Shown here piece after piece: positions 4,344-15,896 of a stretch of DNA of 18,065 nucleotides. Positions within the stretch are counted from its first letter, which is position 1, and each line of letters begins with the position of its first letter. Below the pieces are notes generated by a model. It ran no database searches and was not told the DNA's origin. It was given only the letters and a program-made list of their open reading frames with translations. The DNA is from Candidatus Peribacteria bacterium. Lineage in GTDB: Bacteria > Patescibacteria > JAEDAM01 > Absconditabacterales > Absconditicoccaceae. Location of the stretch: positions 1 to 18,065 of the forward strand of contig JAITQZ010000028.1 in NCBI GenBank assembly GCA_031288635.1, in the 5' to 3' direction. The position numbers were made by a program, and so were the translations under genes.

Positions 4344-5117
4344 TTAGTTTTTTTTACAGTAGATGAGTTTGATGTAGGGGTTTTGAATATTCACAGATTG
4401 TTGCACTCCCAAATCACCATAATCTGGCGACCCACTTTGCCAATCATATGCTTTTGCTCCATCAGTAACTTTTCCTGGTGTATTCGATTTCACATTCTCT
4501 GGTCAGCTTACTACTTTAGATCAGGTTTTTCTCCAAACAACCTGTAGCTGATTATCATAATCACCTCATTTATTCGATCATAACCATTTATTTCATGAAA
4601 CGGTATCTACACCTGCACGATATCAATAAGGTGCACCTGTATAACCATAACTTTCAGCAAAAAACGAATCTACCATCCAGTGACTATGAGGGGCAATCTG
4701 ATTTGCTGCTAACATAACACTACTCTTTCCTCCCGTTTCCTTGGAATTACTTGTGGAACCCATAATAAATCTATTATCTGCAGCAGAAAATCTGGTCCAT
4801 CCACTCGGACAAGCTGATAAGTCAAATGCCATTACTGCTCCGGCTGGAATGCTTCCAGTAGTAGTATTAGAGCTATTACTTTGTTTGAGACTTTGCAGCT
4901 CTGCATCCATTCCCGCTATATACTCTATCAAAATATCCCAATTGGTAGCGGTAAGCTTCTTATCATTTGCCCCCGCTTTGAGATTACGTAAAGCAGCAAC
5001 ATCGCTATTTCGTGCTAGGATTACTGCTCCTCCGAGCAACACGAAAGAGATAAAAACTAATGCACTCACCAAGGGTTTAACCATCAGCTTTAGAAAGCTG
5101 TGAACTTTTGTTTTCAT
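4344..5117 (-). CDS. Membrane-anchored phage tail-collar-like protein
   Basis: A 257-residue protein ending in TAA. A basic N-terminus is followed by a hydrophobic segment (about residues 13-36) that could be an uncleaved anchor or signal peptide, then a short charged, probably helical region (40-75). From about residue 90 it matches the pattern of tail-collar-type domains: IPAGAVMAFDLSACPSGW, then ADNRFIMGS, a GGK segment, APHSH, and a C-terminal NPYIKLIYCKK resembling the usual final strand of that family. Six in-frame TGA-Gly (4623, 4593, 4578, 4566, 4521, 4503) all lie in the C-terminal third. In phages such domains sit in tail fibres; in a cellular protein with a membrane anchor I infer a surface or appendage protein, perhaps for attachment. 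Fold assignment is good, role uncertain. Confidence 0.78.
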
Positions 5118-8940: not shown

Positions 8941-9423
8941 CTATTTTTGGGGTCAATATGATTTAAATACTGGTGGAGTTCGCCATTGTTGTTGCGGTAA
9001 AGCGTTTAGTGCTTCCACGATTTTGGTAATAGTTTTCGGACCTGGGATACCATCAGGAGAAAGAGAATTAGCTTGCTGAAATGCCTTTATAGCATTTTTA
9101 GTTTTAGAAACTGTTTTTCCTTTGTCTGCTAAAATTCAATCCACTTTTCCAAAATCATATCCTAATTTTTTCAAAGCAATTTGAACCGCCATAATCAAGA
9201 CTCAAGAATTTCTTTTAGTTAAAGATTCCCAACTTAAATCTTTCTTCTTCTCAAGGTAATCTTTTACATCATCCATATTATAGACAACATTACCATTCTC
9301 TACTTTACCAAATGATGTTCTCTCAACAACGGGACGAAGTGTGTCGAGTTCTTCTTTTGTTTGCTCTTTAACCCAATCGACAGGCCTAAAGCTTGCTTCA
9401 GGTTGAATGAATTTTTCTGGCAT
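8941..9423 (-). CDS. Peptidoglycan-binding domain protein (PG_binding_1-like)
   Basis: A 160-residue code-25 protein from the ATG at 9421-9423 to TAG 8941-8943, with TGA-Gly at 9202, 9136 and 8953. Residues 1-75 are polar with no signal peptide and include a short acidic/basic helical part. Residues about 78-145 match a PG_binding_1 repeat: a helix with VQIALKKLGYDFGKVDGI, then TKNAIKAFQQANSLSPDGIPG and a final helix, the usual order of this three-helix fold. In known proteins this domain binds peptidoglycan and directs enzymes or surface proteins to the wall. No catalytic domain is visible, so I infer a wall-binding or adaptor protein. The ATG is preferred over a TTG five codons earlier because a TATACT box lies 6 nt upstream of it. 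It neighbours the VanY gene and lies downstream of the structured RNA. Confidence 0.82.
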
Positions 9424-9479: not shown

Positions 9480-9670
9480 TAAAAAGCACTCTCGCCGTGA
9501 GTGCATACAATCTAAGACAAACTACCAATTGATTTGGTGCTCGACTAATAAGATTATTCAGCAGCGAAAGTGCTTCATTTTCTTATTAGTCAAACAATTA
9601 GACCATCTACCAAAAAGGCATTTTACTTACCCTTTCAAATCGGTAAAATTTTGTCTTAAACTGTATGCAC
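9480..9670 (-). ncRNA. Putative structured RNA or riboswitch-like leader, about 190 nt
   Basis: On the minus strand, numbered from 9670 as base 1: closing stem P1a GTGCATACA (1-9) / TGTATGCAC (162-170); 3x3 internal loop; P1b TAAGACAAA (13-21) / TTTGTCTTA (150-158). Inside are three hairpins: ATTTTAC (22-28) / GTAAAAT (45-51); GACTAATAAGA (80-90) / TCTTATTAGTC (118-128) with an inner AGCA/TGCT; and ACCAA (133-137) / TTGGT (143-147). All listed pairs are perfect. The stretch has many TAA/TAG codons in all frames and is not coding. A promoter lies just upstream so that RNA would start at the closing stem, and a terminator follows whose 5' arm reuses the last four bases (GCAC) of P1a. I know no matching family. 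It could be an independent small RNA or a leader controlling the PG-binding gene 57 nt downstream. Confidence 0.72.
9481..9504 (-). terminator. Terminator at the end of the structured RNA
   Basis: Minus strand GCACTC (9499-9504), loop ACGGCGA, GAGTGC (9486-9491), then five T (9481-9485). Its 5' arm overlaps the 3' strand of the RNA closing stem by four bases, so the two helices cannot both be complete. Confidence 0.75.
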
Positions 9671-9675
9671 TATCA

Positions 9676-9703
9676 ATAATAAGGATTTTTTTTGGAAATG
9701 CAA
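9676..9703 (-). promoter_or_regulatory. Promoter of the structured RNA
   Basis: Minus strand TTGCAT (9698-9703), a 16-bp spacer containing A8, and TATTAT (9676-9681). A start 6-7 nt downstream falls at 9669-9670, exactly the first base of the closing stem. Confidence 0.7.
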
Positions 9704-9718
9704 ATTTTACAGAACTTT

Positions 9719-10447
9719 TTAAGAAAATTGTTTTAAGATGTCTGTTTGAGCCTCGCTAAATGTCATCCCCTTTTCCCATAATTCTTTCGCTAATTCCCCT
9801 CCCACATACCTCCAATGTCGCGGTTCTACCGCGTAGCCATCAGTCTCTTTTCTTTTTTGATAACTCTGATGAAATCCATATTCCCAAGCGTGCTGAGCTA
9901 ACCATTCATACTCTATCTGATACTTCGACAAAAATTTTTCCTCATTGGTAGCCTCCCATAAATCCACAGCAAGCCCTAGTTGGTGTTCAGATTCTCCTGC
10001 TCTAGCACAGTAGCCACTTTGTTTACAGCTCTCGGAAATCTGGTTTTTCTGATAGTCATAACTCCTGTAGGCACTCATTACCACGATGGGCTGCTTAAAG
10101 TCCTCGTAAAAAGCGAGAGAAAGCTGTATTAATTGTTCATTCGCCTCTGCCCTCAAAGAACGGTTACCTTGAATTTTCAAGGTCTCAGAACTCTGCATTT
10201 CCACCAAATCGGAAGGGGCATATTTTACATCAGAAAAAGGCTTTCCTACTGAGACGAATTTTTGCAGGTCGTCGTCTGGGAGATTGGCGTAGTCAATAGA
10301 GGGTTCGTTGGTGGGAGCCTCGTCAAGGATTTGAAGAGGAAGAAGTGATGCTGTGGGGTTTTGTTCGGGGTCGATAAAAGGTGCTGTACCACATCAAGAA
10401 AGGAAGAAAAAAAAGCAGAGTGAAAAGAAGAGAGACAGATTTTTCAT
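9719..10447 (-). CDS. D-alanyl-D-alanine carboxypeptidase lipoprotein, VanY family (peptidase M15)
   Basis: A 242-residue protein from ATG 10445-10447 to TAA 9719-9721. The signal peptide is Phe/Leu-rich and ends in lipobox LSGC, whose glycine is the gene's one TGA (10394), so a standard-code reading loses the whole export signal and starts inside the mature protein. After an acidic, Pro-rich linker comes the M15 domain: SAYRSYDYQ (about 125-133), SEHQLGLAVDL with zinc ligands His155 and Asp162, and EPRHWRYVG with the third ligand His211. The family removes the terminal D-Ala of peptidoglycan pentapeptides. I infer action at the outer face of the membrane, trimming its own or a host's wall. 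It has a clear leaderless-type promoter and lies next to the PG-binding protein gene. Confidence 0.93.
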
Positions 10448-10453
10448 AGGTTT

Positions 10454-10481
10454 ATTATATCCATCTCAGGTATTATTACAA
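10454..10481 (-). promoter_or_regulatory. vanY-type gene promoter, leaderless arrangement
   Basis: Minus strand TTGTAA (10476-10481), a 16-bp spacer, and a perfect TATAAT (10454-10459), then AAACCT and the ATG. The best promoter in the window; the mRNA should begin at the start codon. Confidence 0.75.
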
Positions 10482-10643
10482 TCGAAAGTTTCTTCTCTGT
10501 TGTGCAATTTGTTCCACTTCACGTAAATCCATTTCTCAAAGTAATAATAAAATATAACTATGAGAAATATAATACTGATTTTTTCTTTTGCAAGATTTTT
10601 GTAAGATATTTAAGATAGAGAAGAAATTCTATTTTCTCAGTAC
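10482..10643. other. Intergenic stretch between the giant gene and the VanY gene
   Basis: AT-rich and non-coding. It holds an 8-bp inverted repeat ATTTCTCA 10531-10538 / TGAGAAAT 10561-10568 around an AT-only centre. No T-tract terminator is visible after the giant gene, so its transcript may run on. Confidence 0.45.
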
Positions 10644-13600
10644 TTATGTCATTTGAGTATCAGAGGCTGAAGAGAGCACTCTATCATCAGTTCCTGTCGG
10701 AAGATTTGAAGGGTCATTTGTATTATATCCTGCAATATTTACTACTCTCATACTCACTCACTGCCGATTTTCTGGATAATCATCTGGTACCATAGTATCT
10801 TTATGGAAAGCGTCTGCTATGAAATGATCATTTGGGATACCATATTTGTCTTGTAAATAGGCTTTAAATGCTAGAGCTCTCTCATTGGCTAATTTTTTAT
10901 TATAGGTCGCTGCGTCTCCTGAGCCAGCATACGTTCGACTGGCTACCCCACGAAGCATAATAAACGCGTTTTGATTTAGTGGATCTTCAATCCCATTTTC
11001 TTTACATAACTGCTGAAATACCGTCTCAATCTTTTTTGGATCTCTCGGTAAAACCTCATTTGTAGGAACTAAGATCCCACCATCAGTTGGATTTTTTATC
11101 ATTCCTTCTATTTCTGTTTGAATATCTTGTCCGATACGATAACGAATATCAGATGGCTTTTCTCTGTCTAATGGCAAAAGGAAGATTGGCAAAAGTCGGT
11201 GTGGAAATTGTGTTTTAGGATATACTTTAGGTACCGTATGAGGAGGTAATGCAGCGATTTCACTTGGTCAAAGATATGGGGGAAGCATCTTTTGTTCTGG
11301 TGCTGGTCAGAGTTGTTTCACTTCTGGTTGCTGTCATTGTCATTCTGACATATTCTGATTTACATATTTATCTCTCAATGCATAATAACGCTCTCTAATT
11401 TGGGTACCATTTCCATTTTCAGGGATATACTCAGTCTCAGACTTTGCTGAACGGACAGTTCTACCATTTTCAATCCATTTCCATTCTCATTTCTTTGCTG
11501 TATTATGAGATGGAGTGTTTTCATATACCATCCTATAATTATAACCATCAATAGTGATTCACTCTGGAGACGTTAGTTTTGCATCAAATTCATCAACAAG
11601 TTTATTTTCAATGTTTTCTCTTGCAATTACATAATCTTTGGAAGGAATATTTTTTGTAGGTTCACTCTCAACTTTGCTTTCCAATACATTTTTTTCTTCT
11701 TTTAAGAGTGCAATTTCATCCTGTCTTACTTGCCTAAACTTGGTACCTACCTCCTCTTTTAATGCAACAATTTCTTGTTCTTTTTTATTAATGTCGTTTT
11801 CGATCTTTTGCTCTTCTTTCGGATCTGGATTTTTGGAGGCTCTTAGTTTAATAAGTTCTCATTCTAATTGTGCTTTCTCGGCCTGTAATACTTTAATTTT
11901 TTGCATTCTCTCTTCAATACCTTTGATAGAACGTTCAATAGAAGTAACTCTGGCCTTGCCCTTGGCATCAAGCTCTTCTTTTCACAGCTTTTCTAGCTTT
12001 CTCTTGGCGTTATCTATTCTTTCTTGAGTAGGTGCTCAATGTCACTGTCTCGTTAACTCTTCTATCTCCAAATCTATTTCTTTGATTCTTTCTTTAATCT
12101 GTTCTTCGGAAAGTTTAACTTCTTCTTTCATATTAGTTTTCTTTCCAACTTCTTCTCATGTTTTTTCTCATGACTCTGGCTTACTCTTTGCATTACTTCT
12201 TTTAGCCATCTCCGCTTCTAATTGTTTTCCATACTCTTCATATCTCGCTTTAAGAGCTTCTAAATCTGCTTTTGCCTTAGTATCTTTTACATTAGGCAAC
12301 TCTTTCTCTAGACCTTCTACAATCTGTTTGTTTGCCTCTACCAGTTTAGCTCACTCTCCTTTGTCAAGCATCTTCTCAGCTATAGAGTCAGGTTTATTGT
12401 TTGGTTTGGATGTCCTTTGATTTCTCGGCTTAAATCCTCTCATAATCAGTCCCATTCCTGCTGCTAATCCCATCATCTGAAAAATCATCTCTGGATGTGA
12501 TTCACCTGTCAGCCAAAGTTGTCTTTGGTTTTCTACAGCACCCATAAATGCACCATCCCCTACCGAAAGGGTGGTATTTCCCAATCCTTTCGCAAGTTTG
12601 TTGGCATTCGCTGAAAATATTTTAGATAATCCTTTAAGCTGTTGGATATACCTTCACAGTCCTGCTGTAACCAATGAAACTCCAACGAAGGTTGCAGTCA
12701 TTGTAGCAGTATCTACAAATCATTCATTAAACGTTTCATACGCTTTTCCTTGTACAAATTCACCTCCTATCATTACTGCCGAACCAACTAATGCTCAAAC
12801 TACGACGGTAGAAACTGTAGTCATCGCAGCCGTAGCAGAAGCCATTCCTGCCACTGATGCAATCGCTCCAGCTAAAGCAGCACCTCCTGCACCAGCAGTA
12901 GCTACTGTAGCAACAATTGCAGCTACAAGTACTGCAGCCATAGCGGTATATTCCTTTAATTTCTGAGTATTTCTATCAGACGTATTAAGATATCCAAATC
13001 CTTTCATATCAATATATGCTTTTGCAATATCCGCATCAAGTCCAGATAGACCTTGGAATATGAGAGGAGACCGGCTATCATTATATCCCAACTGTTTCAT
13101 TCTATTATCCATCTTTCTTTCATAATCATCCATCATAAAAGCACTTGTTTTCTGGATCATCTCATTAAGCTGGCTACTAACCAATTCCACATAATCAGTA
13201 TCGGTTAATTTTGCTTGATCAATCGTTCCAAATCTATTTTGGTAATTTACATACGTAGCTAATAATCCTCTTTCATTGATAGAAAGATCTTTGTAGTCTT
13301 TTGTTATCCAATCTGCTCCAGACTTTCCGTTTTCTCCCTCTACCAGTACCTTTCCTCCAGGGAAAGATCTCAGTAACGTTTTTCTCTGCTCAATAGAAAG
13401 ATCCTTACTTTCTTTATGTTCAGGTTTGATTGTTTTGCTTTCATCTAATTTGTCCATAAAGCCTCCTTTTCCTGTGGCAAGTTCTTGAAAAATCTCTTCT
13501 GACAAATCATAGTCTATAAAGTGATTATCTATATTCACTCTAGAACTCTCATCTCTAGCAACTTGAGCAAGTTCAAATAATTTGCCTCTTTTCATCTCCA

Positions 13601-15896
13601 ACGGAAAGTTTCCTGTCTCTCCGGTATCAGGTGTATTTCTGATGTTATCAAAAATTTTCTCCCCTAACGTGTGCATATAGGCAGGTACACTCGATTTAAA
13701 TGCATCAATTTTAGAGCGATTGTTAGCAATAGCTTGATGTTTAGCTACATATAAATCGATTAACTCATCAATGGGTTTCCCTTCTATTTCAGCATCGAGA
13801 TGTTGTATTGCTATTTCGATATTTTCATCAGCGTCAGATTTTGTTAGGATATTTTCTAAAGCATCAGCATCTTTTACTCCTGTAGTCTCTCCACCTGTTC
13901 CACTGGTGATTTCCGCCAACTTTTTTTTATACGAACGTATCGTATCTTGCATTCCTTGTTTCTGAGGGTCAGTATCTGGCAGAGCTTGTACTCATTCTTC
14001 CAATAGAGGGAGAGCCTTTGAGATTTCTCTTTTTTTAATTCTCACTTCAGCCTTTTCGGATTCATTCAAATAGGTTTTTTTTAGAAGTGTCTGTATTTCT
14101 GTAAAATACGTATCAATAGAAGAGCTTAATTTATTAATATCGGTTTCTTTAGAAATCTCAGCGATATTTTTTTGTTCTTTAACCAAATCTGTATATTTCT
14201 CCTTCCAGAGTTTATTCATATAGTTTACTACTTTCTTGGTATTGCTATCGTTATCAAAAATTTTTTCTGTTTCTTTATGTCCATTAAAGAGGTTTGATGC
14301 AAACACTTCCCAATCCATTACTCCATTTTTCTGGTCAAACTCAATATAATGACTTGTCCAAAGAGCATTTGTTCCAAAAGGCTGATCATTTTCTGGCATC
14401 GTAATTTTACCATTTTTGATATTTTCTACAATTCTTTCCATCTCTGCTTCAATCTGATGTTGCATCCAAATAGCTTCTTTTGGATCTTTTCGATCGACAT
14501 CTAATCCTTCAATAAAGACTTGATTATCATCTAATGCAACTTCCTTACCATCTTTATCTTTTACTTTTCCATTTTCCACTTTGAGCCCTTGTTTTTTTGC
14601 ATCCATCGTAAAATTCTGATTTTTAGTTACCTTTTCTGTATATAGTTCTTTCCGTCTGGTATTGAGATAATTCACTACTTTATCTTCATTAGAGCCTTCA
14701 TTTAGAAAATCATATAGTTTTTCTCCTAGCCTCTCATCAGGAAGTTTTTCTTTCAATTGTTTTTCAGTCAAAACACTGATATTATGCTGTCCAGATAAAG
14801 AGATAAATTCGGCAACTGTCCCTCCCCTCATAACGTCTTCAAAGGGTTTCTCCATATTCTTAGGGGTGCTCGTCCCATTCAAAGCTCCAATCACTAAATC
14901 TTCTAACACTTTTTCTGTAAGGTCATATAAGGCTCCAGCAATTTTCATTTCTTTTTTCCCATCAGGGCTTCCATTTGGCAAACGCAGTTGCATCTCTTTT
15001 TGAAAATCAAATCCCATCGCTTTGAAATTATTTAATATTCCTTTATATTTTTTTTCGTTCGCTAGAGTCGCCTGTGTTTTTTGTTCTACATATTCTTTTC
15101 CCTTTCTAGATGCCAATTCAGCAGTTGCAGGTAATAGTTGGACGCCTTCATACACTAGGGCTCTTTCATTTGTCCCTTCATATACAAACGTATTTCCCTT
15201 TTTCTCAATCAAAATACGATTATTACCTCCCGTGAGAGCTTGTACTTTTGATTTTATTTTAGCACTTTTTGATCCAGAATAATCCAACACGAGCTTATTA
15301 GCATCAGCTTGATTAGACATTGCAACAATTTGGTGAATTTTCAAAGGATTTGCAGCTTTAGTAAAAACTCCATCAGCATCCAATGCTTTCACTTTTTGAG
15401 TTTGTTGGGTATCTACGATATTCTTTTTTGCTTCTTCATCTTTTTGCAAAAGTTGCTCATATTCCTGTCTAATTTCTTTAATCGCTGCCTTATCTGCTTC
15501 TGTGATTTTCGTAGCCACTTCCAAAGCTAACTCTTCGTCATTTCTGTTGTGCTTCCCATTTTCTATTTTTTTCTGGAATTCTTGTGCTTTTCTTTCAAAA
15601 ACATTTTTAGCATTTTGAACATTAACCTTCGTATCCATTCCTAATTTCTTTCCAATATCAGAAAGTCCATATTTATGCAAGAGCTCCTGATAGGATTTTT
15701 CTCTACTCCCTAAAATTTCAGTCCCAGCACTATAAAAGGCTTTCTCATCATTGTACCCTCGTGATCCCCAAAATCACTTTCTCGTATCTACTTTCTGTTT
15801 TATTTCTGTTTTCAGCCCTTTAAGATCTGATGCAACAGAGTGCTCTTTTTGATCTAAAAGAGCTTTGAAGTCTGATAAGTTATTTCCTGTAGTCAT
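10644..15896 (-). CDS. Giant 1,750-residue protein: hydrophobic core, coiled coil, OmpA-like C-terminus
   Basis: With TGA as glycine one frame runs from ATG 15894-15896 to TAA 10644-10646, with 19 in-frame TGA (from 15774 to 10758). Residues 1 to about 970 are polar, Lys/Glu-rich and probably mostly helical, with no signal peptide. About 980-1045 is an Ala/Gly/Val-rich hydrophobic region long enough for two membrane helices; shorter hydrophobic parts lie near 1062-1080 and 1136-1155. About 1180-1420 is a strongly charged coiled coil. A Pro/Gln linker (about 1515-1570) leads to an OmpA-like domain (about 1600-1725): the NKKLANERALAFKAYL helix and the ENRQGVSMRVVNI end fit the family, but the conserved Asp of the GHTD segment appears to be Ser. 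OmpA-like domains normally bind peptidoglycan. I infer an envelope-spanning or secreted interaction protein; the route across the membrane is unclear. It follows a 106-residue gene by 19 bp. Confidence 0.85.

Follow-up and report, generated by a model that had tools for sequence, protein, structure and literature searches.

A family of 5' leader RNAs in genetic code 25 bacteria with a hairpin apex antisense to its own terminator, a candidate transcription attenuator

Here we present a family of structured 5' leader RNAs in which the main predicted contact, overlooked by the initial annotation of this DNA, is between the apex of a conserved hairpin and the loop and 3' arm of the leader's own terminator, to which the apex is antisense. 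The family consists of 13 leaders of one sequence type from 7 genomes, including the leader in the window (the whole 18,065-nt stretch analyzed here), plus four leaders in one related genome that have the same layout, three of them partly similar in sequence and one unrelated. We consider it fairly probable that this RNA is a cis-acting 5' leader serving as a transcription attenuator, in which the apex-terminator pairing would compete with termination. As an attenuator it would be of a new variety, in which a hairpin tip holds, as the antiterminator partner, an antisense copy of the terminator. This layout recurs in one genome, where 11 leaders were seen, and follows a simple pairing rule. Cell-wall binding, DNA methylases and probable surface proteins would thereby come under one control device, in very small bacteria presumed to live on hosts.

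Genes in the window read through TGA (translation table 25), as illustrated by a Der-like GTPase gene with 8 TGA codons. The nearest relative found is 'Candidatus Peribacteria bacterium isolate Im510_bin22' (the genome of L001, designated G001), which is 77% identical to the window in the best-matching segments of both malic enzyme and Der. In a synteny search over 21 kb of G001, malic enzyme was the sole match among 12 window proteins. The leader RNA is 186 nt long (minus strand, 9671-9486, followed by a T run) and intergenic, with VanY (9719-10522) upstream and a 160-aa PG_binding_1 protein (8941-9423, minus strand) downstream. The ATG of the latter, directly preceded by TATACT, lies 62 nt past the terminator stem; its product, correctly named a peptidoglycan-binding protein in the initial annotation, had no match anywhere in G001. 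Elsewhere in the window, positions 10644-15896 of the minus strand encode a 1750-aa protein whose sole match, weak and below cut-off, is to OmpA close to the C-terminus, and positions 1171-1983 of the same strand encode a 270-aa lipoprotein-like protein with SCTKDD near its N-terminus and no Pfam match. The gene at 4344-5117 is a distant homolog of a G001 surface family (E 1e-10 in a single comparison), and a leader of the kind studied here is absent from it.

The minus-strand region 9671-9486 is a structured RNA: its fold reaches -70.9 kcal/mol compared with a shuffled mean of -38.5 (z -8.7), and 0/200 shuffles were as good. Ahead of it stands the promoter-like site TTGCAT-16-TATTAT (9676-9703, minus strand; TTGCAT at 9703-9698, 16 nt, TATTAT at 9681-9676), present as originally described, although the match is weak taken alone because five promoter-like sites occur in the same 601-base region, where 1.4 are expected. 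The closing stem P1 pairs 9671-9650 with 9521-9500 at 22 of 22 positions, and 0/300 shuffles were as strong; the 3x3 internal loop that had been drawn into it is in fact a run of G-U, U-A and U-G pairs, so that the helix is unbroken. Past a 3-nt bulge, an inner closing helix is predicted to join 9646-9638 to 9530-9522, with pair probabilities of 0.46-0.93. Its 5' arm is the partner of the second of two TTGGTAG copies; this repeat, which had been taken to offer the arm two possible partners, does occur twice in the window leader and is found in 0/12 homologous leaders. Inside the closing stem lie further hairpins, as previously recognized; the fold has there a 9-pair side hairpin (9612-9636), by eye no shared feature of the homologs, and the main hairpin (9538-9596, conserved core 9544-9590, outer stem ACTAATAAGA/TCTTATTAGT), whose 11 perfect pairs become 16 once wobbles are counted, with an inner 2+4 in addition. 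The hairpin apex (9558-9573) can form 15 pairs with 9486-9500, at -22.9 kcal/mol. This target belongs to the terminator stem-loop GCACTC-ACGGCGA-GAGTGC (9486-9504; -7.7 kcal/mol alone), directly followed by its T run (9485-9481); the T-tailed terminator and its reuse of GCAC from the closing stem had both been noted correctly, and the final 5 nt of the P1 3' arm are common to the terminator 5' arm.

Homologs were found through the hairpin. When the RNA was compared by BLAST with 49 genomes of G001's order, a single notable match emerged, to the apical hairpin, on G001 contig 24 (E 1e-4), and the same hairpin ranked first when 40 genomes were searched with a covariance model built on just the window sequence (E 5e-4); beyond it, the full-length window-only model returned three matches in the 40 genomes, all with E of at least 1.69. 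The window and contig 24 hairpins have identical loops and stems that differ at 3 pairs, all compensatory, a result that 67/500 shuffles equal in a test with two rows only. A covariance model of these two hairpins (R2) matched three more copies in G001, one in G005 and, later, one in G041, and R3, a model built from seven hairpins, brought in G040, G044 and another three G001 copies, the third at E 1.6. The terminator pattern alone gave 24 matches in 40 genomes, 10 of them members, compared with 2 for the control pattern (read backwards) in the same genomes; in G001 all 7 matches were members, one of them new, and the pattern also pointed to G045, listed by R3 at E 0.36. At the other 14 matches no hairpin was seen by eye, and R3 gave one weak match there, off the terminator.

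The R3 searches covered 353 genomes under strict filters and 40 under lax ones, and members were found in 6 genomes of the order; flanks were inspected for a subset of the weak R2 and R3 matches, so that weak members among the many at E>0.1 may have been missed. Closing stem and terminator were judged by eye when a leader was accepted, and the presence of a terminator is therefore partly selected; apex pairing was no acceptance criterion, yet it was noticed prior to being tested. A generic scan of 375 terminator-like sites, whose thresholds were chosen with the members already in view, returned 27 hits at 13 distinct places, of which 2 were non-members, and recovered 9/13 leaders; no leader of the additional G001 subtypes B and C was recovered. 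Searches of neighboring-gene loci with R3 gave three weak matches over 9 VanY loci (E at least 0.33), none beside a gene end, and one matched place over 15 loci of PG-binding homologs (L129, the same as L132; E 0.46), apparently inside an ORF. Three patterns run on viral contigs gave 2, 0 and 2 matches; the two inspected, L273 and L274, resemble ordinary terminators.

In all 13 leaders a promoter-like site, a closing stem, the hairpin and an abutting terminator are followed by an ORF on the same strand, which starts 18-62 nt past the terminator stem (18-26 nt in 10). Of the 12 copies in relatives, 7 are non-independent, being paralogs within a single genome. The downstream ORFs span 160-1026 aa, one being cut by a contig end. 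The hairpin lies 54-69 nt upstream of the terminator, which is mostly GCACCC...GGGTGC with a T run of 3-5, preceded by one C in G005. The hairpin core is similar across the 13, though not in the additional subtypes B and C, and an ATG within it, considered as the start of a leader peptide, is present in 7/13 leaders and missing in 6/13, so that this candidate was rejected. Promoter evidence across the family appears modest: the sites match 7-10 of 12 consensus positions, with a mean of 8.5/12 versus 7.1 (sd 1.0) for shuffled flanks. Among the 12 homologs, 11 have a best -35 that starts with TTG and 11 a best -10 that starts with TA (the site of C17a in G001 is TTTGCA-15-AATAAG), and 4-7 nt separate the end of the -10 from the closing stem, the stem start being hand-set for G041 and G045.

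The closing stem varies widely in sequence between copies and keeps its pairing. In an ungapped test at most 4/300 shuffles were as good in 10/13 leaders; the stem was not significant alone in C7 (22/300), C17a (117/300) and G041 (152/300). It overlaps the terminator by 5 nt in the window, by 2-3 nt in 11/12 others and by 1 nt in one. The initial annotation had made competition between closing stem and terminator the main switch; an overlap of merely 1-5 nt across the family is too short for this, and because it is so small the two would nearly co-form, which makes such a switch weak.

The compensatory changes that had been named as support for the hairpin are present. In the outer stem of 14 hairpins (the 13 leaders and an orphan, G001_C24), 132/140 cells are paired versus 94 when shuffled, with 39 double changes versus 14; 0/2000 shuffles reached either value, and 4/2000 reached the 22 extra pair types. 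For the 7 hairpins outside R3 the figures were 67/70 paired cells and 18 double changes (0/2000 each) and 16 extra types (7/2000). The 7 R3 hairpins have a covariation score of 0.81 versus 0.27 shuffled (0/500), and 7 of their pairs carry a double change, a number reached by 24/500 shuffles. Together with the terminator and the close same-strand gene in 13/13, these changes lend good support to the original proposal of an undescribed structured RNA with attenuator-like geometry.

The second layer of covariation lies between hairpin and terminator. The hairpin segment RCAYYN pairs 6/6 with the terminator 3' arm in 13/13 leaders, through five Watson-Crick pairs and one G-U, and co-varies with it (ACACTC/GGGTGT, GCACTA/TGGTGC, GCACTT/GAGTGC; permutation P = 0.0009). 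The full apex-terminator helix comprises 13-18 pairs at -16.6 to -25.7 kcal/mol, compared with -6.2 to -11.1 for the terminator alone, and the duplex is the stronger structure in 13/13. This complementarity is specific to each copy. Own pairs average -22.9 kcal/mol versus -15.7 for cross pairs, and 0/20000 permutations reached the own sum; the own terminator ranks best for 11/13 apices (second for C25 and C17b), and the own apex ranks best for 11/13 terminators (third for C17b, fourth for G041). When the terminator loop alone is shuffled the pairing weakens, with 0 to 25 of 500 shuffles as good, depending on the copy. Over the 170 nt upstream of the terminator, no segment pairs with it as strongly as the apex in any of the 13 leaders, and the best minus-strand partner of the window apex in the window is its own terminator, at -25.3 versus -21.7 kcal/mol at the next place. 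At 46 control terminators the mean was -12.2 kcal/mol, with two at or below -20 (one of which, L204, is the G045 leader) and six at or below -16.6; the weakest family value, that of the C17b apex (-16.6), is therefore matched by 6/46 controls, one a member. The apex is closer to the antisense than to the sense of the terminator in 12/13 leaders, with one tie, evidence against a hairpin duplication.

What the sequence statistics carry is thus the architecture, the covarying hairpin stem and an apex-terminator complementarity particular to each copy; competition in the cell between the apex-terminator helix and the terminator hairpin is our inference from them. At the sequence level the leaders hold an alternative pairing that would exclude the terminator and is backed by covariation, and each of the 13 has a terminator and a same-strand ORF. 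In the mechanism that we propose, the RNA would start at the foot of the closing stem, which would hold the leader such that the main hairpin faces the terminator emerging just after it. The apex would first capture the terminator loop together with the last part of the 5' arm, and afterwards the 3' arm, blocking the terminator hairpin and presumably allowing the gene to be read; with the apex masked, the terminator would form and transcription would stop. The balance might be set by a ligand or protein acting on the hairpin's conserved internal loop (approximately AGAAAAUGAA / GGAUUAAUCU, by eye). With the 5' arm and loop alone the apex pairs at -6.2 to -12.4 kcal/mol, compared with -2.7 to -6.5 for its own fold, so that capture could start before the 3' arm exists.

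The best-surviving alternative is a stand-alone small RNA with a constitutive terminator, in which an apex-terminator pseudoknot closes or protects the 3' end and the gene has its own promoter. Many small RNAs have, as here, a promoter at the foot and a terminator of their own, the TATACT just ahead of the ATG in the window could serve such a gene promoter, and the orphan hairpin G001_C24 occurs without a terminator or a directly following same-strand gene. The same element nevertheless stands ahead of paralogous genes in one genome, and the short distance to the ORF in 13/13 leaves scant space for a second promoter. Given this constant downstream ORF we disfavor the small-RNA reading, which we regard as doubtful. 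Somewhat less likely still is a device of opposite sign, in which the apex-terminator helix is, or aids, the terminator: the apex pairing reaches the base directly before the T run and might itself promote release, and the duplex beats the local hairpin throughout, but the captured loop and 5'-arm bases emerge before the 3' arm and already bind the apex, which better suits interference with the local hairpin. A MITE-like mobile element whose terminal repeats mimic a closing stem is very improbable, since the 22-nt inverted repeats spaced by 128 nt and the several G001 copies that could suggest it are countered by closing-stem sequences that diverge between copies with pairing and apex-terminator covariation retained, by the gene start that follows in 13/13 and by the absence of a second copy within the window.

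Known RNA families did not account for the element, in agreement with the initial annotation. A search of the whole window against Rfam 15 (E<=1) gave one unrelated weak match elsewhere, and the region alone (E<=10) gave four matches, all with E of at least 1.2 and far below cut-off. 6S RNA (RF00013), which resembles the leader in its length of about 180 nt and its long closing stem, matched neither window nor region. Among 49 genomes of the order, 5 had a 6S match at E<=10, none over cut-off and four at E<1e-4; these four (L136, L137, L138 and L139; 32-44 bits, cut-off 46.4; in 4/49 genomes) differ by eye from the window RNA, and identity with 6S was rejected. 6S RNA itself seems, from these matches, to be present but divergent in the order.

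Several regulatory leaders provide a context for the attenuator reading. T-box leaders place an antiterminator and a terminator ahead of many different genes; they are alike in preceding varied genes, and the window matches no Rfam family. In plasmid antisense-RNA attenuation (pT181, pIP501), antisense pairing selects between two leader folds, but that RNA acts in trans, whereas here the antisense segment sits within the same leader. Our literature search found no description of an element of this type in Patescibacteria. In the ZTP riboswitch, the long-range pairing of the aptamer and an intrinsic terminator are described as mutually exclusive, the choice being made during transcription (PMC10907184); further papers on riboswitches that set a pseudoknot against a terminator are PMC11077080 and PMC10085676. 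The ZTP/pfl and fluoride/crcB riboswitches are alike in that a pseudoknot overlaps the terminator. They differ from the present leaders, where 13-18 pairs join the apex to the terminator loop and 3' arm, the sequence is free to vary and there is no Rfam match. The L5-L13 contact of the cobalamin riboswitch env8, in which a receptor-domain loop docks on the loop of the expression hairpin and hides the ribosome-binding site, belongs to the kissing loops, typically of five to seven pairs (PMC10907184); in our leaders the predicted contact is with a transcription terminator, through a helix of roughly double that length or longer.

The genes behind the leaders point to no single metabolite. The window leader precedes the PG_binding_1 gene, and five G001 leaders (C7, C17a, C23, C23b and C17b) precede members of one protein family with a hydrophobic N-terminus and no explanatory Pfam match, which is probably secreted or surface-located. 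Two further G001 leaders, C22 and C25, precede long proteins with GDSL-lipase matches, just under cut-off for C22 and over it for C25. In G005 the leader (L189, C1) stands before three genes, for a DrmD-like helicase, an AbiA-like RT and a type III methyltransferase, a putative defence operon. The leader in G040 is followed by an EcoRI-type methyltransferase and then a GmrSD_N/HNH protein, and those in G045, G041 and G044 by a D12 methyltransferase, NERD and a hexapeptide transferase, respectively. These genes look like accessory, host- or phage-facing functions with no common metabolic pathway. A bolder extension, which we put forward as speculative, is that the leaders constitute a new class of leader switch in the code-25 group, a 'terminator-antisense hairpin' with a private apex-terminator code and drifting sequence that could also act in trans on the terminators of paralogs, the same device guarding methylase and defence genes. 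Surface-protein genes might in that case switch one another, because cross duplexes average -15.7 kcal/mol and terminated leaders could act in trans.

Additional leaders came to light through the downstream proteins. The first 70 aa of one G001 downstream protein had 14 matches in G001, five of them genes behind leaders already counted. Four more have leaders of the same layout that the R3 genome searches had missed, bringing the leaders seen in G001 to 11 in total; at the remaining five genes, three were without a leader by eye and two lay at contig ends. Three of the four leaders (subtype B, L286-L288) partly resemble the main type in their apex, and one (subtype C, L285) is unrelated in sequence; both subtypes have a different hairpin core. 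Their apex and terminator are again antisense, with 14-19 pairs at -19.4 to -25.6 kcal/mol, compared with averages of merely -8.4 to -10.2 for the same apices against the 13 main-type terminators. As these four were spotted by eye, they count as support and not as a blind test. In L285 the scripted closing stem was a poor register, and a better one, placed by eye, ends at the terminator.

The orphan hairpin at G001:C24:14882-14929 (L175, L188) lies between convergent genes, has no adjoining terminator and no same-strand gene directly downstream, and was excluded from the 13. Its best antisense partner within 1.5 kb sits 850 nt downstream, and an Rfam search of the surrounding G001 stretch gave no family above cut-off. 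Additionally, a second segment, ATTGAGTGGTGC followed by T's, occurs after the terminator in L286, L287 and L288 (G001) and in L189 (G005), and also upstream of the C22 promoter (L186); its T tail is TTT in G005 and TTTT in the others. The GTGGTGC of this segment may offer the GCACCAC 5' arm an alternative partner, making a nested second terminator possible.
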